Part shown: positions 2,127 to 47,709 of the stretch, piece after piece
Layout: each line of letters opens with the position of its first letter
How positions within the stretch are numbered: the first letter of the stretch is position 1
Origin: Eretmocerus hayati
Taxonomy: Eukaryota; Arthropoda; Insecta; Hymenoptera; Aphelinidae
Reading direction: 5' to 3'
Length of the DNA: 64,000 bases
NCBI GenBank assembly: GCA_029851415.1
Contig: CM056742.1
Span: forward strand, 101,848,976 to 101,912,975
The notes under the pieces: model-generated
Seen by the model: the letters and a program-made list of their open reading frames with translations, nothing else
Told to the model about the DNA's origin: nothing
Database searches by the model: none
Position numbers and translations under genes: made by a program

Positions 2127-4632
2127 TTTTATTTATTTTATTTTATTTTATTTGGATCAACGGTCCCTCAGACCTTTAGTACATAATTATACAAATAACC
2201 AACATTGGTAAATAATAAAAATATTTTGAAACAAATCTTCCAATATCTTCCTGCAAAATCACCTTATAATAACTATAAAGATGGAATAATGTATTAGCAG
2301 GCAGATAGAGCTGGAATCTTTTTCAAATAAGTAATAGATTTCACAAAACATCAAAAATAATAATAATAGAAAATAATAATATTCATTCATATAAGAGAAG
2401 TTTCTCTCTCGCTAACTGTTTAAATTTTGAAACTGTGATACCACAATATTCAAACCATTGATAGTTTTCATTTGCAATTCTACACATTCGATTCAGAGAT
2501 GACTTTTGGGATGAGGAGTTTGTATTGAATAGTATCTCATTTCGCCTTAGTATTTTCCCAGGGATTCTAATCTCAATTCTTTCAAGAAGTTCAGGAGCAT
2601 CCACATAGTTGGACATTAGTTTAAAAAGAAAGAATGAGTCTTGGTAATTGAGGAATGACTCTATTGAGCAAATTGAGTGTTTTCTGGCTACATCCACATA
2701 ATCATGAGATCTCCAGTCCATTGGAGAGCCATCAAAGTGTGCTAGGAATCTTAAAAACTTGTGTTGAATGGACTCAATTTTTTTCATCATTTTTGCTGTG
2801 TGAGGTAGCCAGACTGATGAAGCATATGTCAAGGTAGATCTCACTAAAGTTAAGTACAATGTACAAATAGTTTCAGATTCAAGGAAGGCAGTAGATTTTC
2901 TTTTTAATATTGCTAATGTCCTGTTTGCTTTATTTATTATAGCACTGATGTGTGCTTCAAAATTGAGTCTAGAATCAAGAATAACCCCAAGGTCTCTTAC
3001 TACATTTACTCTATTGAGAGCAGTTCCACATAGATAGTAATCAAAGACTATAGGAGCTTCAGGGCTCTTATGAAAAGAGATGCTCGTACACTTTCCAATG
3101 TTAAATTTTAACATATTATCATCCATCCAAGACTGTAGTGCTTCCAAGTCGAGTTGTAGTAATTTAGCATCCTCCACATTATTTATCCTCCTAAATAGCT
3201 TCAAATCGTCAGCAAACAGCAAGGCTTTAGAGTATTTGATACATTTTAGTGCATCATTTATAAATACGTTGAAGAGGAGAGTCCCCAAGTGAGATCCCTG
3301 GGGAACTCCAGAGTGAACTTGAAATGAGTTTGAAGTGATACCATTTACTCTAACTGCTTGAACTCGGTCAGATAGATATGACCCAATCCACTCAAGGAGA
3401 GATCCAGTGATCCCCATGCTCTTTAGCTTTCTTATTAGGATTTCATGGCAGACAGAGTCAAAAGCTTTAGAAATATCAGTATAAATTGCATCAACTTGGA
3501 GTCCAGCTTCAAATGCTTCAAAAATATACTCTGTAAGGCATGTAAGATTTGTGGTAGTTGAGCGCTTTGGCATGAATCCATGTTGATGAATACTAATAAG
3601 TTTATGAACATGTATAGACAGTTTACTTTCAATCATACTATCTAATAGCTTGCCAAATAATGAGATTTTTGAAATTGGCCTATAGTTTTCGATTTGATGT
3701 GAATCCCCACCTTTAGGTATGGGAGACACCCAACTAAATTTCCATAATTTTGGAAAGCATCCAGATTTCAGAGACATGTTGAAAATAATACTTAAAGGAT
3801 CTGCAAGATTTAAAAAACAATTTTTTACAAACAATGAATGAATTCCATCTGGACCAAGGCCCAGCTTTTCACTTGCAAATTGTAACTCTCTCACAACATC
3901 ATCTCTGTTTATCTCAATATTGGAAATAGCAAACGAGTCAAAATTATCTTCATGAGAAGTGTTAGGTGGCTTATCATGTTTCTTGTAAAAAGTACTAAAG
4001 TATTCAGAAAAAAACTGTACACCTTGATCTGGATCTACTACTGTTTTACCTTGATAGCAAAGTTTCTCGGGAATAGTACTTTTATTTGTGGGATTTGCAA
4101 ATTGCCAAAAAGCATTACAATCTACTTTTATATCATCTTCAACCTGCTTTGTGTAGATTTTTCTGTCACGCCTAATCAAGTATTTGCATTTTGTTCTATG
4201 AAGTCTAAATTTCTGACGATCAATATCTTTACCAGTTCTTTTGGCTTTTTTGTGACTAATTTTCTTTGCTATAATTTCTGCTTTCAGTTCTTTGGAGAAC
4301 CACTTTGGATAAGTAGTTTGAAACTTTTTACTATAAGGAACATAGCATGCTATTAATTCAAAAAGAAAATTATAAAATTTGTCAACTGCTTCATCAACAT
4401 TCTTAACATTTTCAAAAAATATATCCCAGTCTACATTTTTTAGTTTACCATTAATTTCATCATAGTTAGCTAGTTTATAGTTGAAGACATAGTCTGAACT
4501 GGAAATAAATGAACTTTGACTAGCTGATAGAGTTGGGATAGTGATGGAGTAACCTACATGAAAAGAATCATGAAATACAAATGAGTCATCGCTCACCTGA
4601 AAATCTACATTTTCAATATTAGTAAAAACTAA
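2127..4632 (-). mobile_element. 5'-truncated Jockey/CR1-group LINE with 8-bp target duplication
   Basis: A non-LTR retrotransposon inserted on the minus strand. Its 3' end at 2127 carries a short AAATA-type tail, read as TTTTATTT repeats on the plus strand. The direct repeat TTCATTTA flanks it at 2119-2126 and 4633-4640 and fits target-primed integration. The 5' end is cut inside the endonuclease: only its last strand (LVFTNI...VGYSI) remains before the linker and reverse transcriptase. It split one copy of the ~310-bp tandem repeat, so it is younger than that array. Confidence 0.88.
2383..4596 (-). CDS. LINE ORF2 fragment: reverse transcriptase, endonuclease lost
   Basis: An open frame of 737 codons with no internal stop. 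Residues ~1-190 are the linker after the endonuclease. The reverse transcriptase fingers and palm follow, with ENYRPISK near residue 305, DISKAFDSV near 380, HSGVPQGSHLG near 425 and the catalytic FADD at 461-464. The thumb (DLGVILDSRLNFEAHI) and a C-terminal domain complete it. It would copy LINE RNA at a nicked target. The frame is open further upstream to 4632, so the nominal start is not a true initiator; the element is a truncated, recently inserted copy that cannot nick DNA by itself. Clade placement (Jockey/CR1 group) is by motif style only. Confidence 0.88.
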   Translation of the reverse strand: MSDDSFVFHDSFHVGYSITIPTLSASQSSFISSSDYVFNYKLANYDEINGKLKNVDWDIFFENVKNVDEAVDKFYNFLFELIACYVPYSKKFQTTYPKWFSKELKAEIIAKKISHKKAKRTGKDIDRQKFRLHRTKCKYLIRRDRKIYTKQVEDDIKVDCNAFWQFANPTNKSTIPEKLCYQGKTVVDPDQGVQFFSEYFSTFYKKHDKPPNTSHEDNFDSFAISNIEINRDDVVRELQFASEKLGLGPDGIHSLFVKNCFLNLADPLSIIFNMSLKSGCFPKLWKFSWVSPIPKGGDSHQIENYRPISKISLFGKLLDSMIESKLSIHVHKLISIHQHGFMPKRSTTTNLTCLTEYIFEAFEAGLQVDAIYTDISKAFDSVCHEILIRKLKSMGITGSLLEWIGSYLSDRVQAVRVNGITSNSFQVHSGVPQGSHLGTLLFNVFINDALKCIKYSKALLFADDLKLFRRINNVEDAKLLQLDLEALQSWMDDNMLKFNIGKCTSISFHKSPEAPIVFDYYLCGTALNRVNVVRDLGVILDSRLNFEAHISAIINKANRTLAILKRKSTAFLESETICTLYLTLVRSTLTYASSVWLPHTAKMMKKIESIQHKFLRFLAHFDGSPMDWRSHDYVDVARKHSICSIESFLNYQDSFFLFKLMSNYVDAPELLERIEIRIPGKILRRNEILFNTNSSSQKSSLNRMCRIANENYQWFEYCGITVSKFKQLAREKLLLYE

Positions 4633-4640
4633 TTCATTTA

Positions 4641-5268
4641 ATCTCTACAGATCTCAAATTTTCAAAAAAATCAGAATTTTCATACAATTTTAGGATCATG
4701 ATGGTCTGGTGATTCTAATTATCATCATATGACGCTTGGAGAAAGCTTCCTGCTAATCACTTTTAGCAGCGTATTTTTTTATTATTCTGAACCTACAAAC
4801 ACATTAGTCGAATATAAATACATATATTTTTCTTAAGAAGGCGTTCCACCATTTTCTACGGCGAGCCCAGGCCTCCTCGTTGTAAGTCAAATCTCGATTA
4901 TTGAAAATAGATTAGTTGAATATACAAGTATTATTCCTAAACAAGCGTTTCACCATTACACTTTACGAATCTATCTCAGAAGGTCCTTTTTCGTCGAAAT
5001 ATCTCAGAAGGTCCTTTTTCTCATCATCCAAATACGTTCATCTCGGGTGCTAGGGCGATTCCTTTTCCAAGCGAATTGGAGAAAATAAGTCCTTCGCGTC
5101 TCATATAACTTGCGAGCACATAGGGCGGTTATGTATTTCCGGCAGAGGCGTTAGCAGGTTCAATCAGTATGGGTTAAATTGATGAAGAATTCTTTTCAGC
5201 CATGCGAGCGAACTCATTATTTCCCTTTTTTCGGTGTGGTATACCTTGCAACTTTGCAATATTAGATG
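4641..5268. other. Gene-free stretch left of the satellite
   Basis: It begins with the resumed tail of the ~310-bp repeat. Two copies of ATCTCAGAAGGTCCTTTTT lie about 30 bp apart near 4974-5021. No gene was found. Confidence 0.5.
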
Positions 5269-5281
5269 AATATCATTCACT
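5269..5281 (+). repeat. 13-bp direct repeat, left border of the satellite array
   Basis: AATATCATTCACT abuts the first satellite base and is repeated in the same orientation at 15006-15018, directly after the last satellite base. This looks like a target-site duplication of the whole array. Confidence 0.75.
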
Positions 5282-5562
5282 GAAAATCATACCCTCGCTA
5301 TGTTCCAATATATGATGGGAGGAACGGCCGAATTGCGAGGCATTCCTTATCGGAGCTAGATTTCTTGACAGAGCTTCCGTCACTCTGATTGTCTGGGAGA
5401 CATGCATCCCCTATAGAGCCACAAAGCCATCGGGAAAATATCAAGAACCCAACTCCAATATCATTATTAGTCTCAAATGTAGAGCTGATGGTAGTTTCCA
5501 TCCTTGTCTCTACACCGTACTGAATCATTTAAACTGTAGAAAAGATGTGTGATATTAAGTGT

Positions 5563-5626
5563 GTGTTTCGCCCTGATCTCTCTCTTGGGCTCGTCAGTGA
5601 GACGAAGAGAGACCTGTCTCAGACAC
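5563..5626 (-). ncRNA. Hammerhead ribozyme, minus array unit 1
   Basis: The core matches the copy at 7508-7571 in reverse complement. Predicted cleavage lies between 5622 and 5621. Confidence 0.85.
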
Positions 5627-6075
5627 TATTGTAAATCAGGTGGATTGAAATCAGGTTGAAGAAGGGTTAACATTGAAATTTTGGTGAAACAACCGTAAAT
5701 TGAGGTTGCCATCTAGTGATGAAGACACGAAGCAGATGTTAAGCTTCGTGCGGTAAACGACTTTATACGGCCTCATGTCGTTTGGTGGAATAATGAAAAT
5801 CATACCCTCGCTATGTTCCAATATATGATGGGAGGAACGGCCGAATTGCGAGGCATTCCTTATCGGAGCTAGATTTCTTGACAGAGCTTCCGTCACTCTG
5901 ATTGTCTGGGAGACATGCATCCCCTATAGAGCCACAAAGCCATCGGGAAAATATCAAGAACCCAACTCCAATATCATTATTAGTCTCAAATGTAGAGCTG
6001 ATGGTAGTTTCCATCCTTGTCTCTACACCGTACTGAATCATTTAAACTGTAGAAAAGATGTGTGATATTAAGTGT

Positions 6076-6139
6076 GTGTTTCGCCCTGATCTCTCTCTTG
6101 GGCTCGTCAGTGAGACGAAGAGAGACCTGTCTCAGACAC
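6076..6139 (-). ncRNA. Hammerhead ribozyme, minus array unit 2
   Basis: Core intact. Predicted cleavage lies between 6135 and 6134. This unit differs from its neighbours outside the ribozyme (T for A near 6210). Confidence 0.85.
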
Positions 6140-6588
6140 TATTGTAAATCAGGTGGATTGAAATCAGGTTGAAGAAGGGTTAACATTGAAATTTTGGTGA
6201 AACAACCGTTAATTGAGGTTGCCATCTAGTGATGAAGACACGAAGCAGATGTTAAGCTTCGTGCGGTAAACGACTTTATACGGCCTCATGTCGTTTGGTG
6301 GAATAATGAAAATCATACCCTCGCTATGTTCCAATATATGATGGGAGGAACGGCCGAATTGCGAGGCATTCCTTATCGGAGCTAGATTTCTTGACAGAGC
6401 TTCCGTCACTCTGATTGTCTGGGAGACATGCATCCCCTATAGAGCCACAAAGCCATCGGGAAAATATCAAGAACCCAACTCCAATATCATTATTAGTCTC
6501 AAATGTAGAGCTGATGGTAGTTTCCATCCTTGTCTCTACACCGTACTGAATCATTTAAACTGTAGAAAAGATGTGTGATATTAAGTGT

Positions 6589-6652
6589 GTGTTTCGCCCT
6601 GATCTCTCTCTTGGGCTCGTCAGTGAGACGAAGAGAGACCTGTCTCAGACAC
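6589..6652 (-). ncRNA. Hammerhead ribozyme, minus array unit 3
   Basis: Core intact. Predicted cleavage lies between 6648 and 6647. Confidence 0.85.
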
Positions 6653-7101
6653 TATTGTAAATCAGGTGGATTGAAATCAGGTTGAAGAAGGGTTAACATT
6701 GAAATTTTGGTGAAACAACCGTAAATTGAGGTTGCCATCTAGTGATGAAGACACGAAGCAGATGTTAAGCTTCGTGCGGTAAACGACTTTATACGGCCTC
6801 ATGTCGTTTGGTGGAATAATGAAAATCATACCCTCGCTATGTTCCAATATATGATGGGAGGAACGGCCGAATTGCGAGGCATTCCTTATCGGAGCTAGAT
6901 TTCTTGACAGAGCTTCCGTCACTCTGATTGTCTGGGAGACATGCATCCCCTATAGAGCCACAAAGCCATCGGGAAAATATCAAGAACCCAACTCCAATAT
7001 TATTATTAGTCTCAAATGTAGAGCTGATGGTAGTTTCCATCCTTGTCTCTACACCGTACTGAATCATTTAAACTGTAGAAAAGATGTGTGATATTAAGTG
7101 T

Positions 7102-7165
7102 GTGTTTCGCCCTGATCTCTCTCTTGGGCTCGTCAGTGAGACGAAGAGAGACCTGTCTCAGACAC
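7102..7165 (-). ncRNA. Hammerhead ribozyme, minus array unit 4
   Basis: Core intact. Predicted cleavage lies between 7161 and 7160. It is the unit nearest the inversion axis on the left. Confidence 0.85.
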
Positions 7166-7324
7166 TATTGTAAATCAGGTGGATTGAAATCAGGTTGAAG
7201 AAGGGTTAACATTGAAATTTTGGTGAAACAACCGTAAATTGAGGTTGCCATCTAGTGATGAAGACACGAAGCAGATGTTAAGCTTCGTGCGGTAAACGAC
7301 TTTATACGGCCTCATGTCGTTTGG

Positions 7325-7348
7325 TGGAATAATGAATTCATTATTCTA
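7325..7348. other. Inversion axis of the satellite array
   Basis: Minus-strand units end and plus-strand units begin at GAATTC (7334-7339), within a perfect dyad AATAATGAATTCATTATT. A normal unit junction reads AATAATGAAAATC here, so a few bases were lost or changed when the two orientations were joined. Confidence 0.85.
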
Positions 7349-7507
7349 CCAAACGACATGAGGCCGTATAAAGTCGTTTACCGCACGAAGCTTAACATCT
7401 GCTTCGTGTCTTCATCACTAGATGGCAACCTCAATTTACGGTTGTTTCACCAAAATTTCAATGTTAACCCTTCTTCAACCTGATTTCAATCCACCTGATT
7501 TACAATA

Positions 7508-7571
7508 GTGTCTGAGACAGGTCTCTCTTCGTCTCACTGACGAGCCCAAGAGAGAGATCAGGGCGAAACAC
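7508..7571 (+). ncRNA. Type III hammerhead ribozyme, plus array unit 1 (reference copy)
   Basis: Self-cleaving RNA motif. Stem III is GUGU (7508-7511) with ACAC (7568-7571). C17 is 7512, so cleavage falls between 7512 and 7513. Stem I is UGAGAC (7513-7518) with GUCUCA (7531-7536). The conserved CUGACGA is 7537-7543. Stem II is GCCC (7544-7547) with GGGC (7561-7564), then GAAA (7565-7568). All canonical core bases, the G10.1-C11.1 pair and the A15.1-U16.1 pair are present. Loop I (UCUCUCUU, 7522-7529) and loop II (AAGAGAGA, 7548-7555) are complementary over 8 nt, fitting the loop-loop contact that natural hammerheads need. Stem III is open, which is type III topology. Activity is inferred, not shown. 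Confidence 0.88.
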
Positions 7572-8020
7572 ACACTTAATATCACACATCTTTTCTACAG
7601 TTTAAATGATTCAGTACGGTGTAGAGACAAGGATGGAAACTACCATCAGCTCTACATTTGAGACTAATAATGATATTGGAGTTGGGTTCTTGATATTTTC
7701 CCGATGGCTTTGTGGCTCTATAGGGGATGCATGTCTCCCAGACAATCAGAGTGACGGAAGCTCTGTCAAGAAATCTAGCTCCGATAAGGAATGCCTCGCA
7801 ATTCGGCCGTTCCTCCCATCATATATTGGAACATAGCGAGGGTATGATTTTCATTATTCCACCAAACGACATGAGGCCGTATAAAGTCGTTTACCGCACG
7901 AAGCTTAACATCTGCTTCGTGTCTTCATCACTAGATGGCAACCTCAATTTACGGTTGTTTCACCAAAATTTCAATGTTAACCCTTCTTCAACCTGATTTC
8001 AATCCACCTGATTTACAATA

Positions 8021-8084
8021 GTGTCTGAGACAGGTCTCTCTTCGTCTCACTGACGAGCCCAAGAGAGAGATCAGGGCGAAACAC
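8021..8084 (+). ncRNA. Hammerhead ribozyme, plus array unit 2
   Basis: Core intact. Predicted cleavage lies between 8025 and 8026. Confidence 0.85.
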
Positions 8085-8533
8085 ACACTTAATATCACAC
8101 ATCTTTTCTACAGTTTAAATGATTCAGTACGGTGTAGAGACAAGGATGGAAACTACCATCAGCTCTACATTTGAGACTAATAATGATATTGGAGTTGGGT
8201 TCTTGATATTTTCCCGATGGCTTTGTGGCTCTATAGGGGATGCATGTCTCCCAGACAATCAGAGTGACGGAAGCTCTGTCGAGAAATCTAGCTCCGATAA
8301 GGAATGCCTCGCAATTCGGCCGTTCCTCCCATCATATATTGGAACATAGCGAGGGTATGATTTTCATTATTCCACCAAACGACATGAGGCCGTATAAAGT
8401 CGTTTACCGCACGAAGCTTAACATCCGCTTCGTGTCTTCATCACTAGATGGCAACCTCAATTTACGGTTGTTTCACCAAAATTTCAATGTTAACCCTTCT
8501 TCAACCTGATTTCAATCCACCTGATTTACAATA

Positions 8534-8597
8534 GTGTCTGAGACAGGTCTCTCTTCGTCTCACTGACGAGCCCAAGAGAGAGATCAGGGCGAAACAC
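8534..8597 (+). ncRNA. Hammerhead ribozyme, plus array unit 3
   Basis: Core intact. Predicted cleavage lies between 8538 and 8539. Confidence 0.85.
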
Positions 8598-9046
8598 ACA
8601 CTTAATATCACACATCTTTTCTACAGTTTAAATGATTCAGTACGGTGTAGAGACAAGGATGGAAACTACCATCAGCTCTACATTTGAGACTAATAATGAT
8701 ATTGGAGTTGGGTTCTTGATATTTTCCCGATGGCTTTGTGGCTCTATAGGGGATGCATGTCTCCCAGACAATCAGAGTGACGGAAGCTCTGTCAAGAAAT
8801 CTAGCTCCGATAAGGAATGCCTCGCAATTCGGCCGTTCCTCCCATCATATATTGGAGCATAGTGATGGTATGATTTTCATTATTCCACCAAACGACATGA
8901 GGCCGTATAAAGTCGTTTACCGCACGAAGCTTAACATCTGCTTCATGTCTTCATCACTAGATGACAACCTCAATTTACGGTTGTTTCACCAAAATTTCAA
9001 TGTTAACCCTTCTTCAACCTGATTTCAATCCACCTGATTTACAATA

Positions 9047-9110
9047 GTGTCTGAGACAGGTCTCTCTTCGTCTCACTGACGAGCCCAAGAGAGAGATCAG
9101 GGCGAAACAC
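9047..9110 (+). ncRNA. Hammerhead ribozyme, plus array unit 4
   Basis: Core intact. Predicted cleavage lies between 9051 and 9052. Confidence 0.85.
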
Positions 9111-9559
9111 ACACTTAATATCACACATCTTTTCTACAGTTTAAATGATTCAGTACGGTGTAGAGACAAGGATGGAAACTACCATCAGCTCTACATTTGA
9201 GACTAATAATGATATTGGAGTTGGGTTCTTGATATTTTCCCGATGGCTTTGTGGCTCTATAGGGGATGCATGTCTCCCAGACAATCAGAGTGACGGAAGC
9301 TCTGTCAAGAAATCTAGCTCCGATAAGGAATGCCTCGCAATTCGGCCGTTCCTCCCATCATATATTGGAACATAGCGAGGGTATGATTTTCATTATTCCA
9401 CCAAACGACATGAGGCCGTATAAAGTCGTTTACCGCACGAAGCTTAACATCTGCTTCGTGTCTTCATCACTAGATGGCAACCTCAATTTACGGTTGTTTC
9501 ACCAAAATTTCAATGTTAACCCTTCTTCAACCTGATTTCAATCCACCTGATTTACAATA

Positions 9560-9623
9560 GTGTCTGAGACAGGTCTCTCTTCGTCTCACTGACGAGCCCA
9601 AGAGAGAGATCAGGGCGAAACAC
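9560..9623 (+). ncRNA. Hammerhead ribozyme, plus array unit 5
   Basis: Core intact. Predicted cleavage lies between 9564 and 9565. Confidence 0.85.
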
Positions 9624-10072
9624 ACACTTAATATCACACATCTTTTCTACAGTTTAAATGATTCAGTACGGTGTAGAGACAAGGATGGAAACTACCATCA
9701 GCTCTACATTTGAGACTAATAATGATATTGGAGTTGGGTTCTTGATATTTTCCCGATGGCTTTGTGGCTCTATAGGGGATGCATGTCTCCCAGACAATCA
9801 GAGTGACGGAAGCTCTGTCAAGAAATCTAGCTCCGATAAGGAATGCCTCGCAATTCGGCCGTTCCTCCCATCATATATTGGAGCATAGCGATGGTATGAT
9901 TTTCATTATTCCACCAAACGACATGAGGCCGTATAAAGTCGTTTACCGCACGAAGCTTAACATCTGCTTCATGTCTTCATCACTAGATGGCAACCTCAAT
10001 TTACGGTTGTTTCACCAAAATTTCAATGTTAACCCTTCTTCAACCTGATTTCAATCCACCTGATTTACAATA

Positions 10073-10136
10073 GTGTCTGAGACAGGTCTCTCTTCGTCTC
10101 ACTGACGAGCCCAAGAGAGAGATCAGGGCGAAACAC
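10073..10136 (+). ncRNA. Hammerhead ribozyme, plus array unit 6
   Basis: Core intact. Predicted cleavage lies between 10077 and 10078. Confidence 0.85.
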
Positions 10137-10585
10137 ACACTTAATATCACACATCTTTTCTACAGTTTAAATGATTCAGTACGGTGTAGAGACAAGGATG
10201 GAAACTACCATCAGCTCTACATTTGAGACTAATAATGATATTGGAGTTGGGTTCTTGATATTTTCCCGATGGCTTTGTGGCTCTATAGGGGATGCATGTC
10301 TCCCAGACAATCAGAGTGACGGAAGCTCTGTCAAGAAATCTAGCTCCGATAAGGAATGCCTCGCAATTCGGCCGTTCCTCCCATCATATATTGGAACATA
10401 GCGAGGGTATGATTTTCATTATTCCACCAAACGACATGAGGCCGTATAAAGTCGTTTACCGCACGAAGCTTAACATCTGCTTCGTGTCTTCATCACTAGA
10501 TGGGAACCTCAATTTACGGTTGTTTCACCAAAATTTCAATGTTAACCCTTCTTCAACCTGATTTCAATCCACCTGATTTACAATA

Positions 10586-10649
10586 GTGTCTGAGACAGGT
10601 CTCTCTTCGTCTCACTGACGAGCCCAAGAGAGAGATCAGGGCGAAACAC
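10586..10649 (+). ncRNA. Hammerhead ribozyme, plus array unit 7
   Basis: Core intact. Predicted cleavage lies between 10590 and 10591. Confidence 0.85.
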
Positions 10650-11098
10650 ACACTTAATATCACACATCTTTTCTACAGTTTAAATGATTCAGTATGGTGT
10701 AGAGACAAGGATGGAAACTACCATCAGCTCTACATTTGAGACTAATAATGATATTGGAGTTGGGTTCTTGATATTTTCCCGATGGCTTTGTGGCTCTATA
10801 GGGGATGCATGTCTCCCAGACAATCAGAGTGACGGAAGCTCTGTCAAGAAATCTAGCTCCGATAAGGAATGCCTCGCAATTCGGCCGTTCCTCCCATCAT
10901 ATATTGGAGCATAGCGATGGTATGATTTTCATTATTCCACCAAACGACATGAGGCCGTATAAAGTCGTTTATCGCACGAAGCTTAACATCTGCTTCGTGT
11001 CTTCATCACTAGATGGCAACCTCAATTTACGGTTGTTTCACCAAAATTTCAATGTTAACCCTTCTTCAACCTGATTTCAATCCACCTGATTTACAATA

Positions 11099-11162
11099 GT
11101 GTCTGAGACAGGTCTCTCTTCGTCTCACTGCCGAGCCCAAGAGAGAGATCAGGGCGAAACAC
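11099..11162 (+). ncRNA. Hammerhead ribozyme, plus array unit 8, core mutant
   Basis: The conserved core reads CUGCCGA: invariant A6 (11131) is C. This should abolish or greatly reduce cleavage between 11103 and 11104. All stems are intact. Confidence 0.85.
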
Positions 11163-11611
11163 ACACTTAATATCACACATCTTTTCTACAGTTTAAATGA
11201 TTCAGTACGGTGTAGAGACAAGGATGGAAACTACCATCAGCTCTACATTTGAGACTAATAATGATATTGGAGTTGGGTTCTTGATATTTTCCCGATGGCT
11301 TTGTGGCTCTATAGGGGATGCATGTCTCCCAGACAATCAGAGTGACGGAAGCTCTGTCAAGAAATCTAGCTCCGATAAGGAATGCCTCGCAATTCGGCCG
11401 TTCCTCCCATCATATATTGGAACATAGCGAGGGTATGATTTTCATTATTCCACCAAACGACATGAGGCCGTATAAAGTCGTTTACCGCACGAAGCTTAAC
11501 ATCTGCTTCGTGTCTTCATCACTAGATGGCAACCTCAATTTACGGTTGTTTCACCAAAATTTCAATGTTAACCCTTCTTCAACCTGATTTCAATCCACCT
11601 GATTTACAATA

Positions 11612-11675
11612 GTGTCTGAGACAGGTCTCTCTTCGTCTCACTGACGAGCCCAAGAGAGAGATCAGGGCGAAACAC
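11612..11675 (+). ncRNA. Hammerhead ribozyme, plus array unit 9
   Basis: Core intact. Predicted cleavage lies between 11616 and 11617. Confidence 0.85.
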
Positions 11676-12124
11676 ACACTTAATATCACACATCTTTTCT
11701 ACAGTTTAAATGATTCAGTACGGTGTAGAGACAAGGATGGAAACTACCATCAGCTCTACATTTGAGACTAATAATGATATTGGAGTTGGGTTCTTGATAT
11801 TTTCCCGATGGCTTTGTGGCTCTATAGGGGATGCATGTCTCCCAGACAATCAGAGTGACGGAAGCTCTGTCAAGAAATCTAGCTCCGATAAGGAATGCCT
11901 CGCAATTCGGCCGTTCCTCCCATCATATATTGGAGCATAGCGATGGTATGATTTTCATTATTCCACCAAACGACATGAGGCCGTATAAAGTCGTTTACCG
12001 CACGAAGCTTAACATCTGCTTCGTGTCTTCATCACTAGATGGCAACCTCAATTTACGGTTGTTTCACCAAAATTTCAATGTTAACCCTTCTTCAACCTGA
12101 TTTCAATCCACCTGATTTACAATA

Positions 12125-12188
12125 GTGTCTGAGACAGGTCTCTCTTCGTCTCACTGACGAGCCCAAGAGAGAGATCAGGGCGAAACAC
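12125..12188 (+). ncRNA. Hammerhead ribozyme, plus array unit 10
   Basis: Core intact. Predicted cleavage lies between 12129 and 12130. Confidence 0.85.
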
Positions 12189-12637
12189 ACACTTAATATC
12201 ACACATCTTTTCTACAGTTTAAATGATTCAGTACGGTGTAGAGACAAGGATGGAAACTACCATCAGCTCTACATTTGAGACTAATAATGATATTGGAGTT
12301 GGGTTCTTGATATTTTCCCGATGGCTTTGTGGCTCTATAGGGGATGCATGTCTCCCAGACAATCAGAGTGACGGAAGCTCTGTCAAGAAATCTAGCTCCG
12401 ATAAGGAATGCCTCGCAATTCGGCCGTTCCTCCCATCATATATTGGAACATAGCGAGGGTATGATTTTCATTATTCCACCAAACGACATGAGGCCGTATA
12501 AAGTCGTTTACCGCACGAAGCTTAACATCTGCTTCGTGTCTTCATCACTAGATGGCAACCTCAATTTACGGTTGTTTCACCAAAATTTCAATGTTAACCC
12601 TTCTTCAACCTGATTTCAATCCACCTGATTTACAATA

Positions 12638-12701
12638 GTGTCTGAGACAGGTCTCTCTTCGTCTCACTGACGAGCCCAAGAGAGAGATCAGGGCGAAACA
12701 C
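12638..12701 (+). ncRNA. Hammerhead ribozyme, plus array unit 11
   Basis: Core intact. Predicted cleavage lies between 12642 and 12643. The surrounding unit has several T-to-C and A-to-G changes (for example near 12724, 12818, 12977 and 13046) but none in the ribozyme. Confidence 0.85.
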
Positions 12702-13150
12702 ACACTTAATATCACACATCTTTCCTACAGTTTAAATGATTCAGTACGGTGTAGAGACAAGGATGGAAACTACCATCAGCTCTACATTTGAGACTAATAA
12801 TGATATTGGAGTTGGGTCCTTGATATTTTCCCGATGGCTTTGTGGCTCTATAGGGGATGCATGTCTCCCAGACAATCAGAGTGACGGAAGCTCTGTCAAG
12901 AAATCTAGCTCCGATAAGGAATGCCTCGCAATTCGGCCGTTCCTCCCATCATATATTGGAGCATAGCGATGGTATGGTTTTCATTATCCCACCAAACGAC
13001 ATGAGGCCGTATAAAGTCGTTTACCGCACGAAGCTTAACATCTGCTCCGTGTCTTCATCACTAGATGGCAACCTCAATTTACGGTTGTTTCACCAAAATT
13101 TCAATGTTAACCCTTCTTCAACCTGATTTCAATCCACCTGATTTACAATA

Positions 13151-13214
13151 GTGTCTGAGACAGGTCTCTCTTCGTCTCACTGACGAGCCCAAGAGAGAGA
13201 TCAGGGCGAAACAC
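13151..13214 (+). ncRNA. Hammerhead ribozyme, plus array unit 12
   Basis: Core intact. Predicted cleavage lies between 13155 and 13156. Confidence 0.85.
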
Positions 13215-13663
13215 ACACTTAATATCACACATCTTTTCTACAGTTTAAATGATTCAGTACGGTGTAGAGACAAGGATGGAAACTACCATCAGCTCTACAT
13301 TTGAGACTAATAATGATATTGGAGTTGGGTTCTTGATATTTTCCCGATGGCTTTGTGGCTCTATAGGGGATGCATGTCTCCCAGACAATCAGAGTGACGG
13401 AAGCTCTGTCAAGAAATCTAGCTCCGATAAGGAATGCCTCGCAATTCGGCCGTTCCTCCCATCATATATTGGAACATAGCGAGGGTATGATTTTCATTAT
13501 TCCACCAAACGACATGAGGCCGTATAAAGTCGTTTACCGCACGAAGCTTAACATCTGCTTCGTGTCTTCATCACTAGATGGCAACCTCAATTTACGGTTG
13601 TTTCACCAAAATTTCAATGTTAACCCTTCTTCAACCTGATTTCAATCCACCTGATTTACAATA

Positions 13664-13727
13664 GTGTCTGAGACAGGTCTCTCTTCGTCTCACTGACGAG
13701 CCCAAGAGAGAGATCAGGGCGAAACAC
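13664..13727 (+). ncRNA. Hammerhead ribozyme, plus array unit 13
   Basis: Core intact. Predicted cleavage lies between 13668 and 13669. Confidence 0.85.
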
Positions 13728-14176
13728 ACACTTAATATCACACATCTTTTCTACAGTTTAAATGATTCAGTACGGTGTAGAGACAAGGATGGAAACTACC
13801 ATCAGCTCTACATTTGAGACTAATAATGATATTGGAGTTGGGTTCTTGATATTTTCCCGATGGCTTTGTGGCTCTATAGGGGATGCATGTCTCCCAGACA
13901 ATCAGAGTGACGGAAGCTCTGTCAAGAAATCTAGCTCCGATAAGGAATGCCTCGCAATTCGGCCGTTCCTCCCATCATATATTGGAGCATAGCGATGGTA
14001 TGATTTTCATTATTCCACCAAACGACATGAGGCCGTATAAAGTCGTTTACCGCACGAAGCTTAACATCTGCTTCGTGTCTTCATCACTAGATGGCAACCT
14101 CAATTTACGGTTGTTTCACCAAAATTTCAATGTTAACCCTTCTTCAACCTGATTTCAATCCACCTGATTTACAATA

Positions 14177-14240
14177 GTGTCTGAGACAGGTCTCTCTTCG
14201 TCTCACTGCCGAGCCCAAGAGAGAGATCAGGGCGAAACAC
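14177..14240 (+). ncRNA. Hammerhead ribozyme, plus array unit 14, core mutant
   Basis: It carries the same A6-to-C change as unit 8, here at 14209, exactly six units (3,078 bp) downstream. The shared mutation marks a multi-unit duplication. Cleavage between 14181 and 14182 is predicted to fail. Confidence 0.85.
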
Positions 14241-14689
14241 ACACTTAATATCACACATCTTTTCTACAGTTTAAATGATTCAGTACGGTGTAGAGACAAG
14301 GATGGAAACTACCATCAGCTCTACATTTGAGACTAATAATGATATTGGAGTTGGGTTCTTGATATTTTCCCGATGGCTTTGTGGCTCTATAGGGGATGCA
14401 TGTCTCCCAGACAATCAGAGTGACGGAAGCTCTGTCAAGAAATCTAGCTCCGATAAGGAATGCCTCGCAATTCGGCCGTTCCTCCCATCATATATTGGAA
14501 CATAGCGAGGGTATGATTTTCATTATTCCACCAAACGACATGAGGCCGTATAAAGTCGTTTACCGCACGAAGCTTAACATCTGCTTCGTGTCTTCATCAC
14601 TAGATGGCAACCTCAATTTACGGTTGTTTCACCAAAATTTCAATGTTAACCCTTCTTCAACCTGATTTCAATCCACCTGATTTACAATA

Positions 14690-14753
14690 GTGTCTGAGAC
14701 AGGTCTCTCTTCGTCTCACTGACGAGCCCAAGAGAGAGATCAGGGCGAAACAC
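14690..14753 (+). ncRNA. Hammerhead ribozyme, plus array unit 15 (last)
   Basis: Core intact. Predicted cleavage lies between 14694 and 14695. The unit that follows is cut off at 15004. Confidence 0.85.
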
Positions 14754-15005
14754 ACACTTAATATCACACATCTTTTCTACAGTTTAAATGATTCAGTACG
14801 GTGTAGAGACAAGGATGGAAACTACCATCAGCTCTACATTTGAGACTAATAATGATATTGGAGTTGGGTTCTTGATATTTTCCCGATGGCTTTGTGGCTC
14901 TATAGGGGATGCATGTCTCCCAGACAATCAGAGTGACGGAAGCTCTGTCAAGAAATCTAGCTCCGATAAGGAATGCCTCGCAATTCGGCCGTTCCTCCCA
15001 TCATA

Positions 15006-15018
15006 AATATCATTCACT
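15006..15018 (+). repeat. 13-bp direct repeat, right border of the satellite array
   Basis: Second copy of AATATCATTCACT, immediately after the truncated last unit. Confidence 0.75.
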
Positions 15019-19130: not shown

Positions 19131-19338
19131 AAAAATATCATCTCCACTAAAACCTGGATAATGAAATCGACAGATACAGGTATGAATTTTCTCAATTGTA
19201 GGTCTCGTTGTATGATACTATCAATTAGCTGTGGATAATGTAGTGATCTCGAGGTGATGTGTCCAATATAGTCGTTACAAGGTAACGGGCTTCTACGTTA
19301 CGTAGGTTCCACTAGCTCTCGAATCTCATTGATCAGCT

Positions 19339-19920
19339 ATGCCGTATCGGGTAGCTTGGGAGAGAGACTTTCCATTTCGAGCTTGGATCCAACGAGATGT
19401 AGATCGAGTCTCTGCCTATTGTAAATATTGTAATCAAACCTTGACACTCCCCCGTCCCTCAAATTTGGTAAAACACGCCGCGACATCAAAACATAAAAAC
19501 AATGATCCAAATAATCAAGATAAACAGGTCAAAACATCTGACCATACTTATTGTCTTCATAATGTGAATGAGATCATTAACGAGAATCAAGAAACGGGCG
19601 TCGAGAGTAATACAAGCCCAATATTACATGCCTCAAGTGGAGAGAGCGTGGAAATTTCCGCTGCTGCTGAAGAACCGCGACCAGAACAGCCACCAGTAAA
19701 CAACGCTGATCTATCTCTGAACCAATGTGATCCGAGCCAAGAAAACATTCATAGTCATGAAGAAGACATTACAGTATCAAAATCAGCAGCAACGTCCACT
19801 GGGAGTACTCATAAGAGATGTTTCAGGCAGGAATGGACTGAAATGGAGGAATATGACTGTTTTGTGCCGGTGGGCAGAACTGAAGGAGGCCGTGCAATTG
19901 AAACGCTATGTATCATCTGA
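19339..19920 (+). CDS. N-terminal part of hAT-Ulp1 protein: BED-type zinc fingers, ending at an in-frame TGA
   Basis: 193 codons opening with a BED-type DNA-binding finger: W at residues 8 and 16, then C-x2-C at YCKYC (~30-34), followed by LVKH and TSKHK (~47-54). An acidic, Ser/Gln-rich linker follows. The segment ends in ...ETLCII and a TGA at 19918-19920. The next codon, GAC at 19921, is in the same frame and opens the rest of the protein (DKTF...FNRHL...IQH). The TGA sits exactly where the second zinc-binding Cys of a second finger should be, so a TGT/TGC-to-TGA nonsense change is the simplest reading. The two frames were almost certainly one 1,329-codon gene. Confidence 0.8.
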   Translation: MPYRVAWERDFPFRAWIQRDVDRVSAYCKYCNQTLTLPRPSNLVKHAATSKHKNNDPNNQDKQVKTSDHTYCLHNVNEIINENQETGVESNTSPILHASSGESVEISAAAEEPRPEQPPVNNADLSLNQCDPSQENIHSHEEDITVSKSAATSTGSTHKRCFRQEWTEMEEYDCFVPVGRTEGGRAIETLCII

Positions 19921-22900
19921 GACAAAACGTTTCCGGCGGATCCTAGTACCTTCAATCGACATTTGAAAACGATTCAGCACGGGAAGAAATCGGGCAAAAT
20001 TCCGGACACATTCGACGAAGAAGTAGCTGAGGCAAAAATTAGGCTAGCTGCGATATCTTGTGAGTGTAATACAGCTTTCCGATACTGTGACAAAGAAATG
20101 ACGTATTTGAAAGACATATTTCACGACTCAGAGTTGATGAAGAAGGTTAAAATTGATCGTAAAGAGATTGCTGGAATCATCAGTGAAGTGATAGCACCAG
20201 GTCAGAAAGAACGGTTGATCGAAATTCTCAAGAAAAATGGATTCCACGTTCTCATTGATGAATCCACTGATATAACAGAATTTGGGTCTATGTGTGTCGT
20301 GGTGCGTTACTTCGATTTTTCGCAAGGAAAAGTAGTGAGTTCTCTGTGGGATCTCATACCGGCTCGGCAAGGGGATGAAAATTGCAAGATAGACGCAAAG
20401 TATATCGCTGATGAGGTACTAGCAACCTTCACCGCCGCTGATATTCCTCTTGAGAATATCCTGAGCTTCACGTCTGACACTTGCGCTGTTATGATGGGTG
20501 AGCATAATTCAGTGGCCACGACTTTTAAGGACAGAATTCCGAGCATTGAAATAGTGAAATGTAGTTGCCATCAGGAACATCTTGTAGCAAAATGGGCTCT
20601 GAAAAAGATTCCAGAAGAAAGTATCCAGCTCGTATCGCTCATATACAACTACGTGAGGCATCAAAAAAGGTGTCACAAATGGAAAGTTTTGCAAGAAAAG
20701 CTTGGACTCGTGCCCATCACAATAAAAAGACACTACGATATCCGATTCTTATCCCTTTACAATTGCACGAGAGAACAGTTGAGCAGGTGGGATGCAATGA
20801 TTCTGTTCATGGAGGAAGAGTGCAAGCAGAATTTACAGGCGCAAAAGATCGTGACCACGAAAGGAAGAAAGACAAACCGAGCATACAGCAAAGAAAAAGA
20901 CCCTCGATATATTTTGGGCCTGCTGAAGGATCCCGTAATGAAAGCTTATAATCAATTTGTGGAGGCTAAACTGTCCAGATTGGTCAAATTCAACGCAGAG
21001 ATGCAAGGCGAGTACGTTAACGTCTCCGATCATCTTGAAAAAGCAGCACAGCTCTATTTAGAAATATTGTCTATGTACATGGACGAAGATTACATTAGGG
21101 AGACAGCATTAGAAAGTATCGATCCACAGAATAAGCAAAAGTTTAAAGATTTGGCTGACACATACGTGGGCACGCAAACAAAGACAACAATATCCGAAAA
21201 TAAAGAATTTTGGGATAACACTATGTACAAGACATTTCTAGAGACCTGTCGTGCTAGTCTTGTTGAAGCATGCGTACAAATGCGGAAGCGATTCACGTTC
21301 CGTGATCTGAGATTCGTTTTTCATCAAAATAACGCCTTCAATCCCAAATTCCATGAAAGATGCCCAAAGATTGATCATATTTTTGATGCATATAGACAAG
21401 TTAATGAAACGAAAAAGGACAATGCACGTGATATGCTCAATGATCAGTGGAGCAAACTCGCAGAATATCCTTTCCCAGAAGAAACCTTGGAAATACTGCA
21501 AACTTGTTCAAAGACCGAAGTATTCTGGTTTCAAATATACAATTTTCTGGATGAAACTGCCAACGGGTTCCCATTCAGAGAGCTTGCAAATTTTGCTCTC
21601 CAAATAATAGCTGTCCCTAATTCAAACGCCGACCCGGAAAGAGTTTGGAGCAAAAGAACATTGGTCAAGACAAAGTTGAGAAACAAGCTGTCCCACGCTA
21701 CCTTACGATCGATATTACTGAGCGCATCGCTAATAAAAGATTGTGGCGGTTTTTTGACATTCAAGCCCACAGAGAGCATGATTACACGGATGGCGTATCC
21801 CCTATTGAGTAAAAAGAAAAAATTCACAGCTACAAATCAAGTCGGGGATGGCACAGTCCTAAAGTATGGGCAGACAGAAATCACGGAGTCGACAATTGAA
21901 ATGTGCCGAGGTGAAGATGCGATATACAGGAAAAAGTATGCTGACGTGAATAATCACAAGACCTCTGAAGACGATTGGAAACTTGTAGCTAGATTACGAG
22001 AATTTGACAATTCTGGCAATGAAAGCAATCTGAGCAATGAAGCAGAAAGTGAGCTGGACCATTTTTCTCCGAGCCCGCCAAAAAGAAGGAGAGTATCTTA
22101 TGAAGAAGATTCCCACGATTTTGTTATGAACACTTCTAAGGCTTCGGTCAATGATCACGAAAGTGTGACGAACTTGATAGAGCATACCACGACTGAAGAT
22201 ATACGCCCACACGATGAGGTGATTATAATTGAAGACAGTGATTCCTGTGAAGACATCTACGAGCTCTACAGGGATGGTACTGTACGTGCCAATCGACGCG
22301 TCACTGAGTCCGTCATTCGTGAATCGTCAGGACCACGAATAAACAACAATTCTCAGTTACTAGTCCGCGGTAATCGACGGTTGTCTTTATTGCAGAACGG
22401 TTTGGTGGCAGATCACGCATACTACTTACGTTTAACAAACATAGAGGATTACTTAGTAGTTGCCAGGTATACCACTGTTATAAACCATCCAGTCAGAGAC
22501 TACAGACAAAAAACTTTAGAAAACCGAGTACTTCATGCTTGCGTTCCGAATAGACGTGTTACAGTCTATTTACCTCCATATTGTACTCTCCGCCTAGACG
22601 GTACTTCACGTGATAAATGGATCGACGGGTCAGTTATTGATGCTTTTGCTGCGATCGAAGAGCATGAGTGGGCCAATGCTGCTGTTGTACCTACAGAACA
22701 AGGTGCGAAATTGCTGACAAAAGGACACTCGCCGTTTAACCAAGATTGGGACGCAGACTGGGTCTTGTTCCATCTTAGTCGGGATTTCAAAGGCATAATA
22801 CTGATGCCATATCTTTTTGGAGACCACTGGACCCTCTTCTTAGTCGATGTTGATAACGCCATTGTCACTCATTTTGATTCTTTTATAAAAAAAGAAATAC

Positions 22901-23328
22901 AGATGACGTCCAGATCCAAAATGTGTTTTGATAACTTTTTGGCCTACTTAAACGACCCACGCAATAATAGCAAGAGCAATATTCGTGGCAAGGAGTATCA
23001 ATACCGTCCTTGGCCTTATGCAATACCCAAGCAAGTAGACTCATTCAATTGTGGCATCTTCGTAATGTACTTCATGTACTGCCTCGCACGCAGACTTCAA
23101 ATGAATCTCGGATTCGAGCCTATGCTCTACAGAACTTTGTTAGCAAAGTATTTACTACAGAAGGCAAGTGACACTCGAGACACGTGCTTGAGGTGCATTA
23201 GCCCGAGGCAAAATTTCATTAATGTACGAATCTACTGCACAATGTGTGATCGATGGATTCACAAAGACTGTCTCCGGCGCAACCAGGTTGTGAACGAACC
23301 ATTCACGTGTACAATGTGTGCCAATTGA
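19921..23328 (+). CDS. hAT transposase fused to Ulp1/C48 SUMO-type protease and PHD finger
   Basis: Numbering is from the TTG at 19963. A hAT RNase H-like core shows D99 (LIDESTD), D172 (SFTSD), a C-x-C-H cluster at 200-203 and E559 in the C-terminal dimerisation motif NSNADPERVW...KTKLRNKL, so the transposase acidic triad is present. A basic KRRRV (707-711) looks like a nuclear signal. VIII followed by EDSDS (753-761) looks like a SUMO-interacting motif. The protease domain has all four C48 positions: H955 (GDHW), D972 (HFDSF), Q1024 and C1030 (SFNCGIF). The tail is a C4HC3 PHD finger (C1075, C1078, C1092, C1095, H1100, C1103, C1116, C1119). Expected roles are cut-and-paste transposition plus SUMO deconjugation in the nucleus. 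Terminal repeats and the target duplication of the element were not identified. The frame after the TGA is open for 1,135 codons. Confidence 0.87.
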   Translation, partial: DKTFPADPSTFNRHLKTIQHGKKSGKIPDTFDEEVAEAKIRLAAISCECNTAFRYCDKEMTYLKDIFHDSELMKKVKIDRKEIAGIISEVIAPGQKERLIEILKKNGFHVLIDESTDITEFGSMCVVVRYFDFSQGKVVSSLWDLIPARQGDENCKIDAKYIADEVLATFTAADIPLENILSFTSDTCAVMMGEHNSVATTFKDRIPSIEIVKCSCHQEHLVAKWALKKIPEESIQLVSLIYNYVRHQKRCHKWKVLQEKLGLVPITIKRHYDIRFLSLYNCTREQLSRWDAMILFMEEECKQNLQAQKIVTTKGRKTNRAYSKEKDPRYILGLLKDPVMKAYNQFVEAKLSRLVKFNAEMQGEYVNVSDHLEKAAQLYLEILSMYMDEDYIRETALESIDPQNKQKFKDLADTYVGTQTKTTISENKEFWDNTMYKTFLETCRASLVEACVQMRKRFTFRDLRFVFHQNNAFNPKFHERCPKIDHIFDAYRQVNETKKDNARDMLNDQWSKLAEYPFPEETLEILQTCSKTEVFWFQIYNFLDETANGFPFRELANFALQIIAVPNSNADPERVWSKRTLVKTKLRNKLSHATLRSILLSASLIKDCGGFLTFKPTESMITRMAYPLLSKKKKFTATNQVGDGTVLKYGQTEITESTIEMCRGEDAIYRKKYADVNNHKTSEDDWKLVARLREFDNSGNESNLSNEAESELDHFSPSPPKRRRVSYEEDSHDFVMNTSKASVNDHESVTNLIEHTTTEDIRPHDEVIIIEDSDSCEDIYELYRDGTVRANRRVTESVIRESSGPRINNNSQLLVRGNRRLSLLQNGLVADHAYYLRLTNIEDYLVVARYTTVINHPVRDYRQKTLENRVLHACVPNRRVTVYLPPYCTLRLDGTSRDKWIDGSVIDAFAAIEEHEWANAAVVPTEQGAKLLTKGHSPFNQDWDADWVLFHLSRDFKGIILMPYLFGDHWTLFLVDVDNAIVTHFDSFIKKEIQMTSRSKMCFDNFLAYLNDPRNNSKSNIRGKEYQYRPWPYAIPKQVDSFNCGIFVMYFMYCLARRLQMNLGFEPMLYRTLLAKYLLQKASDTRDTCLRCISPRQNFINVRIYCTMCDRWIHKDCLRRNQVVNEPFTCTMCAN

Positions 23329-42903: not shown

Positions 42904-42948
42904 GTGAGTAGGAATATTAATCTAGTTGAACATGAAATCCGGGAGTGA

Positions 42949-43932
42949 TAGGCTCATTTTACAAATTCAAATACTTCAACGCATGCTTATTCAATCAAAG
43001 ACAGCCACAATCGAAGCTCCTCAATGAGTATAATCATTGCTCTCTCAAAAATCGGAGTTCAAGTGACAGCTCATCTCTCGTTGAAGTTTTTTTTTAGAAT
43101 TTGGAGAAAATGATTTGAGGATTATGTTGAAAGAAGTGGTCTTAGCTCATCCCAATTTATCGTTGAGGTGTTTTGAGAATTTAAAGAGAATGATTTGAGG
43201 ATCAAGTTGGGATAAGTGGTCTTAGCTTATCTCATCGTAAAATCTCCATATCACGTAGAGAGAGGCATGACTACTACAAGAAAGAAAGAGGGTCCTGTCC
43301 GCCTCTCATTATTCCCGGATTTGAAAATGGGTTGACGGGATCTTACATCATAATTCATGTCATTTCCCTACCTTCATCGTAATATGTGAACCCTCATATT
43401 TTTGAAGGATGCAGTCTTACATCCTCTCAAATCTAATATCTTGCAGTTCCTTACTGTTTGGAAACATTGTTTGGCATAATGTGGAGTCAATTTTGACTCC
43501 ATTGGAGTCAAATACGTGCGACTCCAAGCTTCGAGTCGCATGAATCTGACTCCAAATGAGTCAAATTTGACTCACTTGGGGTGAAATTCAAGTGAAGCTC
43601 ACTCCAACGAGTTAAGCATGAAAGAGACATGTGTGAGTAACTGGGTTAAATATGAAAATGAAAAGTGCATTTATCGAAGAGAATTTGGACAAAAAATCGT
43701 ATTTTATGAACATTCTCAGCATATTTATACACCAAACCTATACAGCTCGCGTAGTTTGAAACCACTGAACGAACAAAAAATTGGAATCGATACTTTTTTG
43801 TGATATAGGTATGATTATCAGTAATGAATGAAGAAACCATAGCACTTCATAGATTAACCCATCACTTCACTTGAAATATTTATCGTAAATGAGCTAGGCT
43901 GATAACTGGAACGGGAACGGGGAAGAAAAACG
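42949..43932. other. Gene-free stretch with a GAGTC-rich dyad cluster
   Basis: Between 43482 and 43583, GAGTC and GACTC alternate in several dyads (for example GAGTCAAATTTGACTC), probably a small palindromic repeat. Nothing else could be assigned. Confidence 0.45.
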
Positions 43933-46900: not shown

Positions 46901-47700
46901 CTCCTATTTTCCACCCCTCCCGGCAATTCTAGAGGGCTGCAAAAATTCATGGTGATGCATCTTATCACCCTTCACGATAATCCGTCATCAAATTTTGGGT
47001 TTTTCCACTTGCCGATTTTGAAAAAATTCTTCACCGTCTTATTCGCGATTACTACCCCTATTTTACACCCTTCCCGGCAATTTTAGAGGGCTGCGAAAAT
47101 TCATGGTGATGCATCCCATCCCCCTCTACGATAACCCGTCATAAAATTCTGGGTTTTTTCACTTGCCGATTTTCAAAAAATTCTTCACCGTTTTTCGCGA
47201 TTACTACCCCTATTTTCCACCCCTTCCGGCAATTTTAGAGGGCTGCAAAAATTCGTGGTGATGCATCTTATCACTCTCTACGATAATCCGTCATAAAACT
47301 CTGGGTTTTTCCACTTGCCGATTTTTAAAAGATTCTTTACCGTTTTTTTCGCCTCTACTACCCCTATTTCACACCCCTAGGCAGTTCCTGTCGGTTCAGA
47401 GAAGATCCCCGTGGTGTACATCCAGTCTGTTATTATCATAAGTGAGATCCTGGGTATATCATTGAATTGCTGATACAAGGCATCATGGAAACGATACATC
47501 ATACGCACCTGCCACCCTAGCTATAAGACACCCTCTGTAAATCACCATAACTACCCCCAAAGTGTCTATTGTGGCCCAGATCGATCATGATATGTCTCAA
47601 TATACTCCCATACATCGCTTAGACCAGCCTAGAGTTCAGTTTATAAATTTTCAAAAAATTTCGATTCGTTGCTTAACAACGTTTAGCAAGACCGCTACAT
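43933..47700. mobile_element. Foldback-like element B (9-bp target duplication)
   Basis: Same family as element A: ends ATGTAGCGGTCTTGCTAAAC and GCAAGACCGCTACAT. AGAAAAACG flanks it at 43924-43932 and 47701-47709. Terminal repeats are ~335 bp. The interior holds about 15 subrepeats of ~152 bp in one orientation (44240-46670) and about five inverted (46670-47370). Variants recur every ~763 bp (five units: GAGGCGGATAGG at 45118 and 45881; CTGTAAAATTGCC at 45001 and 45764), a higher-order period. No transposase is encoded. Confidence 0.88.
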
Positions 47701-47709
47701 AGAAAAACG

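Follow-up and report, generated by a model that had tools for sequence, protein, structure and literature searches.

Hammerhead ribozymes are carried by several kinds of repeated DNA including the non-long terminal repeat (non-LTR) retrozymes of metazoans, the LTR retrozymes of plants, Penelope-like elements (PLEs) and a cave-cricket satellite (PMC2837043; PMC7229834; PMC7761336). The present study deals with an array of 513-bp units, each with a type III hammerhead (the core being altered in two), which occupies positions 5282–15005 of a 64,000-nucleotide stretch of the genome of the hymenopteran Eretmocerus hayati (contig CM056742.1, positions 101,848,976 to 101,912,975; the whole of this stretch is referred to as the window). 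The array is a single insertion from a dispersed and non-coding family, which is probably a non-autonomous retrozyme with type III hammerheads, integrated in the Penelope manner from a circular or multimeric RNA.

Metazoan non-LTR retrozymes (Cervera and de la Pena, 2020, PMC7229834) resemble the window family in their short tandem units, which are non-coding and bear a single hammerhead, in a GC content below 50%, in dispersal and in duplications longer than 4 bp. They differ in their type I hammerheads and circles of about 170–400 nt, where the window family has type III hammerheads and a unit of 513 nt; the word "inverted" is absent from the main text of that article. The type I definition does not apply to the window hammerheads, the open helix of which is stem III. 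Plant LTR retrozymes are also non-coding and have type III hammerheads, and the circular RNA intermediate described for them is the one proposed here; they differ in their LTRs and 4-bp duplications from the inverted arms and 8–16 bp duplications of E. hayati (PMC7761336). Type III hammerheads are listed as a mostly plant form (PMC7761336), and atypical ones have been described from dipteran genomes and from termite and toad delta-like RNAs (PMC7936874). These atypical forms are, like those of the window, animal type III ribozymes with Watson-Crick pairing between loops I and II, but their helix I is extended and bears an extra hairpin, whereas stem I of the window ribozyme is simple, with 6 bp and a loop of 12 nt. 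The account cited gives them without a mobile-element context. The window family shows non-coding units, hammerheads in direct tandem, dispersal and target-site duplications, which are among the properties by which retrozymes are recognized. The pDo500 repeat of Dolichopoda cave crickets has, going by its name, a unit of about 500 bp. It is likewise an insect tandem repeat with a hammerhead, but is presented as satellite DNA able to act as a double hammerhead, an inverted insertion anatomy not being part of that description (PMC2837043).

PLEs have been named strong candidates for moving retrozymes on the basis of shared features and co-occurrence, without evidence from end points (PMC7229834). 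In vitro, the Penelope-like protein of Anolis starts reverse transcription at two adjacent internal sites of the RNA and cuts and extends both target strands; the distance between the start sites corresponds to the genomic "tail" of 30–40 bp (Frangieh and others, 2024, PMC11167929). Adineta Penelope insertions have inverted pseudo-LTRs (pLTRs), 8–10 bp duplications and a 31-bp tail on one inverted pLTR (PMC3846280). Head-to-head arms, a target-site duplication, a tail of about 30 bp on one arm, tandem copies and a hammerhead upstream of the region where reverse transcription starts are common to PLEs and the window family. Unlike a PLE, the 513-bp unit has no reverse transcriptase or endonuclease frame, and for that reason the element is not filed as a PLE but only as one that would work like a PLE. 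It is a real, well-bounded mobile element, set apart within the retrozymes by its hammerhead type and insertion anatomy; the type III hammerhead, mostly a plant and viroid form (PMC7761336), here lies in a probable mobile element of an insect. The end points of some twenty strongly duplicated insertions carry a pattern of two sites and two strands like that described in vitro for the Penelope enzyme (PMC11167929), and make the question of what moves animal retrozymes directly testable.

Anatomy of the array and its dispersed relatives

The array comprises 19 copies of the unit, 98.8–100% identical to the first plus unit and arranged head to head: four minus-strand units (5282–7334) are followed by 15 plus-strand units (7339–15005; 14.95 units, the last copy ending at 485 nt), with AATT as the centre of the palindrome at 7335–7338. 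The arms meet at GAATTC, where both stop at the same unit position, and their outer ends fall at unit position 1 (end X, minus arm) and unit position 485 (end Y, plus arm). Both edges are adjoined by exact copies of AATATCATTCACT (5269–5281 and 15006–15018), the only two on the plus strand of the window. The whole 9.7-kb array is framed by this perfect target-site duplication of 13 bp, and because its two copies adjoin both edges, the interval of the original prediction is exactly the insertion. The array had been described there as a satellite family. It is instead a single insertion bounded by a duplication, and 27 other elements with candidate duplications are insertions of 0.6–3.3 kb with flanking repeats of their own; a classical satellite would form arrays without insertion boundaries in one or few places, whereas this family is dispersed and duplication-bounded.

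Within the plus arm, G493 and T502 occur in alternate units from 8365 to 13495 and are absent from the minus units and from the first two plus units, an alternation which suggests a dimeric template for that arm and which repeated copying around a dimeric circle would produce. A68 and C202 (the latter at core position A6) are each common to non-adjacent plus-arm units, and the recurrence of C202 in two units far apart is a hint that some exchange took place later. The longest stop-to-stop frame in the unit, read as a circle, has 90 codons.

The 692-Mb assembly (17 contigs, four of them of 123–205 Mb) was searched with one unit, which gave 149 matches with the best 40 of 546 first-look candidates scored. 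The matches were grouped by hand into the window array and 38 other places, and two loci from a hammerhead search were added, so that the family counts at least 41 loci (the window and L009–L048). Since full units were ranked first, the sample is biased towards them, and the reach of X arms to a full unit is limited by sampling. The same anatomy recurs at loci on four chromosomes, most elements consisting of minus units followed head to head by plus units.

Ends were compared in 31 elements from the 41 loci. One-armed, split or edge-cut loci (L009, L010, L012, L016, L022, L023, L026, L037, L038, L042) were left out, eight of which (all but L009 and L010) have best duplication scores of 4 to 6, as was the first, single-unit copy of L013 (score 5). 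Candidate duplications of 8–16 bp (median 13) flank 28 of the 31 elements (13 bp in 10, 14 in 8, 15 in 4, 12 in 4, 16 in 1 and 8 in 1; some with one mismatch); L035, L036 and L048 fall below the cut-off, with scores of 5, 5 and 7. When the left flank of one element was paired with the right flank of another as a control, a score of at least 8 was reached in 40 of 372 pairings as against 28 of the 31 elements, at least 9 in 7 as against 25, and at least 12 in none as against 21. The weakest duplications (L033, L039 and L040, score 8) may be chance matches. Among the 28 elements, 27 span 0.6–3.3 kb and that of the window 9.7 kb.

X was defined as an arm end at unit 511–13 and Y as one at unit 481–491, about 30 nt apart. 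X is paired with Y in 20 of the 21 elements scoring at least 12 and in 26 of the 28 with any candidate duplication; the exception among the 21 is L045, L039 (score 8) is X/X and none of the 28 is Y/Y. Were ends independent and of equal odds, 20 X/Y pairs out of 20 would be expected by chance about once in 10^6 (hand calculation). The full combination of head-to-head arms, a duplication and a tail of about 30 nt on one arm only is found in the same proportions (20/21 strong, 26/28 overall). X ends extend up to 13 nt beyond the unit join, and unit-to-unit joins are mostly seamless, with small changes at the join in a few elements (e.g., L031, L038). In the 24 X/Y elements measured, a sample biased to full units from which the window and L028 were left out, the X arm is always at least 503 nt; the Y arm reaches at least 480 nt in nine of them, and in all nine the X arm is at least 513 nt. 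Head-to-head joins lie at varied unit positions, with 1–16 nt of overlap, none, or 1–48 nt of filler, and the stops of the two arms are more than 28 nt apart in 29 of 34 listed joins (hand count). X falls within the loop of a short hairpin that is predicted to form (AUAAU-UUUC-AUUAU); as reverse transcription starts in a stem-loop in the Anolis element, this may be of significance.

Three loci show peculiar structures. L045 (2002–2667) has one truncated arm with an X end and a 13-bp duplication but no Y arm, and may reflect copying of one strand only. At L028 (2005–5306) two successive palindromes have their inner joins at unit 282/429 both times, which suggests that a palindrome was duplicated within one insertion. 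The near-identical copies of L013 (2001–2494 and 6834–7721) lie in opposite orientation and share sequence past the X end; a duplicated and inverted stretch of host DNA is more likely than two insertions.

Units of one locus tend to resemble each other. The median identity between opposite arms of a locus is 0.961 (79 pairs) versus 0.943 between loci (5965 pairs), and in a tree of 78 units the nearest neighbour comes from the same locus for 35 of the 60 units that have a same-locus partner and from elsewhere for 25. The units of both arms of L020 carry the same locus-specific changes, bar one position in one unit, and mixed unit versions occur in L028 and L043.

The hammerhead and its relatives

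The original prediction of 19 hammerheads in 19 units, 17 of them with a perfect core, proved right to the base for 5282–15005. The minus-strand hammerheads lie at 5563–5626, 6076–6139, 6589–6652 and 7102–7165, and those of the plus strand at 7508–7571, 8021–8084, 8534–8597, 9047–9110, 9560–9623, 10073–10136, 10586–10649, 11099–11162, 11612–11675, 12125–12188, 12638–12701, 13151–13214, 13664–13727, 14177–14240 and 14690–14753 (the last in the unit of 485 nt). The core reads CTGACGA in 17 units and CTGCCGA (A6 to C) in plus units 8 and 14 (units starting at 10930 and 14008; hammerheads at 11099–11162 and 14177–14240). In the 17 units the type III arrangement is complete, with a CUGANGA...GAAA...UH core, loops capping stems I and II, and an open stem III. 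Stems I, II and III have 6, 4 and 4 bp (A15.1-U16.1 counted), and loop I can form 8 pairs with loop II, worth −9.3 kcal/mol when computed as a duplex; the stem lengths and the loop complementarity originally noted were recovered, and the cut in the first plus unit is predicted at exactly the site proposed, between 7512 and 7513. Type III hammerheads in which the lengths of stems I and II differ by two pairs commonly have such a pseudoknot (Perreault and others, PMC3088659), a pattern that the window hammerhead fits, its stems I and II having 6 and 4 bp.

A strict descriptor of the type III hammerhead, which covers the core and the stems including stem III, matches 17 times in the window versus once in 287.6 Mb of simulated sequence with the dinucleotide content of the window. 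The Rfam Hammerhead_3 model (RF00008), applied with an E-value threshold, matches over its full length with 33.3 bits and an E-value of 6.6e-5 in all three hammerheads of the 1.6 kb tested. The match lies below the gathering score of 48.5, and a search at that score gives no match for the window hammerhead; the shortfall is attributed to the length of both loops. Elsewhere in the genome, two relatives reach 40.5 and 37.4 bits, both below the cut-off (best 68 of 143314 candidates scored). Among 70 fully covered dispersed units from 38 loci, 54 keep the core and 43 the core and the stems as set.

Proposed insertion mechanism and rival explanations

The original prediction had also proposed transcripts that cleave themselves into monomers able to circularise and perhaps to retrotranspose. 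As to mobility and copying from RNA this holds up, since the family is mobile and its duplications and strand structure fit RNA copying, whereas the satellite label does not. The mechanism favoured here rests on features lacking in the earlier account: arms arranged head to head, target-site duplications and the ends X and Y. Each arm of most elements reads as an antisense copy of the unit beginning at one edge of the insertion, and for that reason both target strands were probably primers; the template would continue past X, as a circle or multimer, because joins are mostly seamless and X ends overrun by up to 13 nt. Judged from the sequences, two internal starts on such a template would leave the observed ends, and the end points suggest a link to Penelope; the layouts match closely, and the move from a shared layout to a Penelope enzyme is inferred. 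According to this scheme, transcripts of the array would cleave themselves into 513-nt RNA that is circularised or left multimeric, and a Penelope-like reverse transcriptase with a GIY-YIG endonuclease would nick both target strands 12–16 bp apart. Copying would then begin internally at two adjacent RNA sites, one per target strand, the enzyme would travel along the RNA, or around it, over at least one unit, and the two complementary DNAs (cDNAs) would finally be joined. A narrower version is put forward tentatively and is rather doubtful: the two Penelope-type start sites would always be used together, one on each target strand, with a single ribozyme-made circle as template, and copying from X would make approximately one complete turn or more. 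If true, the family would preserve in the genome the traces of a concerted copying of circular RNA, target-primed on two strands, and would supply the missing link from retrozyme circles to Penelope integration. No account of head-to-head retrozymes was met in the literature searched, most subscription papers lying outside it.

Several observations weigh against this mechanism. The Anolis start sites are alike on top and bottom strands, ribozyme mutants inserted as well as the wild type in vitro, and unprocessed RNA is taken as the main substrate (PMC11167929); with no strand difference and no need of cleavage, that study backs neither strand-specific starts nor circles. For the head-to-head arms of Adineta elements the authors prefer self-priming on antisense RNA (PMC3846280). 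Duplications are mostly 12–16 bp here versus 8–10 bp in Penelope (PMC3846280), and published Penelope hammerheads are of the minimal type I as against type III here (PMC7761336). A search with crude motifs detected no PLE in the 319,970 bases examined (window overlaps included). The cDNA stops do not cluster at unit 175, where one stop (L033) was found, and the alternation of unit versions in the plus arm could also come from unequal crossing-over, dimer-wise. As regards the ribozyme, the best nested fold of the unit RNA is computed at −21.3 kcal/mol versus −13.9 for the pseudoknot-free ribozyme fold, so that a strong rival structure is predicted. Conservation of the hammerhead exceeds that of the remainder of the unit only weakly, 37 of 513 windows along the unit being as conserved, and compensatory pairing is nearly absent, with one two-sided change over four helices (72–80 units).

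The core agrees with the consensus in 0.757 of units versus 0.647 at shifted places, 29% of shifts being as high, and random position sets are as conserved as the core in 19% of cases and as the whole hammerhead in 2%. Broken cells numbered 13 versus a shuffled mean of 12.8 in stem III, 10 versus 10.8 in stem I, 9 versus 10.8 in stem II and 17 versus 16.7 in the loop-loop helix. Mild conservation with near-absent covariation is expected if most changes postdate insertion. Selection on the ribozyme, read from copy divergence, was considered and set aside as the signal is weak.

A cleaved linear monomer was also considered as the template and was rejected, given that stops do not pile up at unit 175. 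In a single case, L033 (2005–3454), the stop of the X arm coincides exactly with unit 175, where ribozyme cleavage is predicted to leave the 5' end, possibly by chance.

Among the alternatives, the unit may be the degenerate pLTR of a PLE, the ribozyme belonging to the parent and not to an independent retrozyme. This is rather unlikely, but several features fit: the anatomy is like that of Penelope pLTR insertions (PMC3846280), the hammerhead is followed by the start sites of reverse transcription in the same order as in the Anolis element (PMC11167929), and an ATG frame of 67 codons runs from unit 295 to just past Y. A coding role for that frame was rejected, as purifying constraint is missing (weighted non-synonymous/synonymous ratio 1.4; shared variants 34 versus 10), and the minimal type I hammerheads so far known from Penelope (PMC7761336) speak against such a parent as they do against a Penelope-type mover.

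Movement of the same retrozyme by the reverse transcriptase of a long interspersed nuclear element (LINE), with the head-to-head arms arising from twin priming, as described for human L1, is decidedly unlikely. A LINE-type reverse transcriptase frame (RVT_1) does lie within the window, joins with overlap fit twin priming and duplications of 12–16 bp fit L1-like integration. On the other hand, poly(A) was not seen at the element ends examined, the two arms overlap in unit coordinates, and the second start is fixed at 481–491 in 26 of 28 elements where that of twin priming would be variable.

Self-priming, as proposed for Adineta Penelope elements (PMC3846280), would have the cDNA or RNA end of the first arm fold back and prime the second. 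The meeting of the window arms at the same unit position around AATT could be explained in this way. A snap-back predicts roughly equal stops, however, whereas 29 of the 34 listed joins have stops over 28 nt apart; nor would the second outer end regularly fall at Y. This route is improbable.

A classical satellite, expanded by unequal crossing-over and inversion with the ribozyme as a passenger, could draw on the dimer periodicity of the plus arm and on the sharing of A68 and C202 by non-adjacent units, a possible product of recombination, but is refuted as the origin by the exact 13-bp duplication that flanks the whole array, and the recurrence of the anatomy on four chromosomes leaves it hardly any probability. 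Equally remote is a foldback DNA transposon, or one resembling a miniature inverted-repeat transposable element (MITE), whose inverted arms contain tandem repeats. The inversion of the arms and the target-site duplications would suit it and such elements seem present at 43933–47700, but the outer ends are not the same sequence, lie 30 nt apart in the unit and vary by several bases, the duplication length varies and the inversion point falls at varied unit positions.

Other features of the window

Further inverted structures occur downstream of the array. Two inverted elements, at 43933–47700 and 29780–31175, have long inverted arms that enclose tandem repeats of 154 bp. The outer parts are 92–97% alike, whether the arms or the two elements are compared, and the elements resemble foldback DNA transposons. 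Tandem repeats of 174 bp lie in the inverted arms of a structure at 31832–37814 (32350–33484 versus 35397–36531, 90%), framed by a second inverted pair (31832–32350 and 37292–37814, 96%), and a 0.77-kb palindrome, 95% alike, is found at 39948–40713. An Rfam ribozyme search of 29900–48000, which includes the 154-bp and 174-bp inverted arrays, gave no ribozyme match; the 12 Rfam matches obtained there at E-values up to 1 belong to microRNA, sRNA and snoRNA families and are all below the gathering score.

Two regions hold long frames. The adjoining stop-to-stop frames of 195 and 1135 codons at 19333–23328, the second with a Ulp1-type peptidase domain (PF02902), are probably a DNA transposon. The LINE-type reverse transcriptase frame (PF00078) lies on the minus strand at 2383–4644 and has 753 codons and 4324 homologues; among the 120 of these that were listed, the named organisms are all insects (Plutella, Euphydryas, Loxostege and Nesidiocoris).

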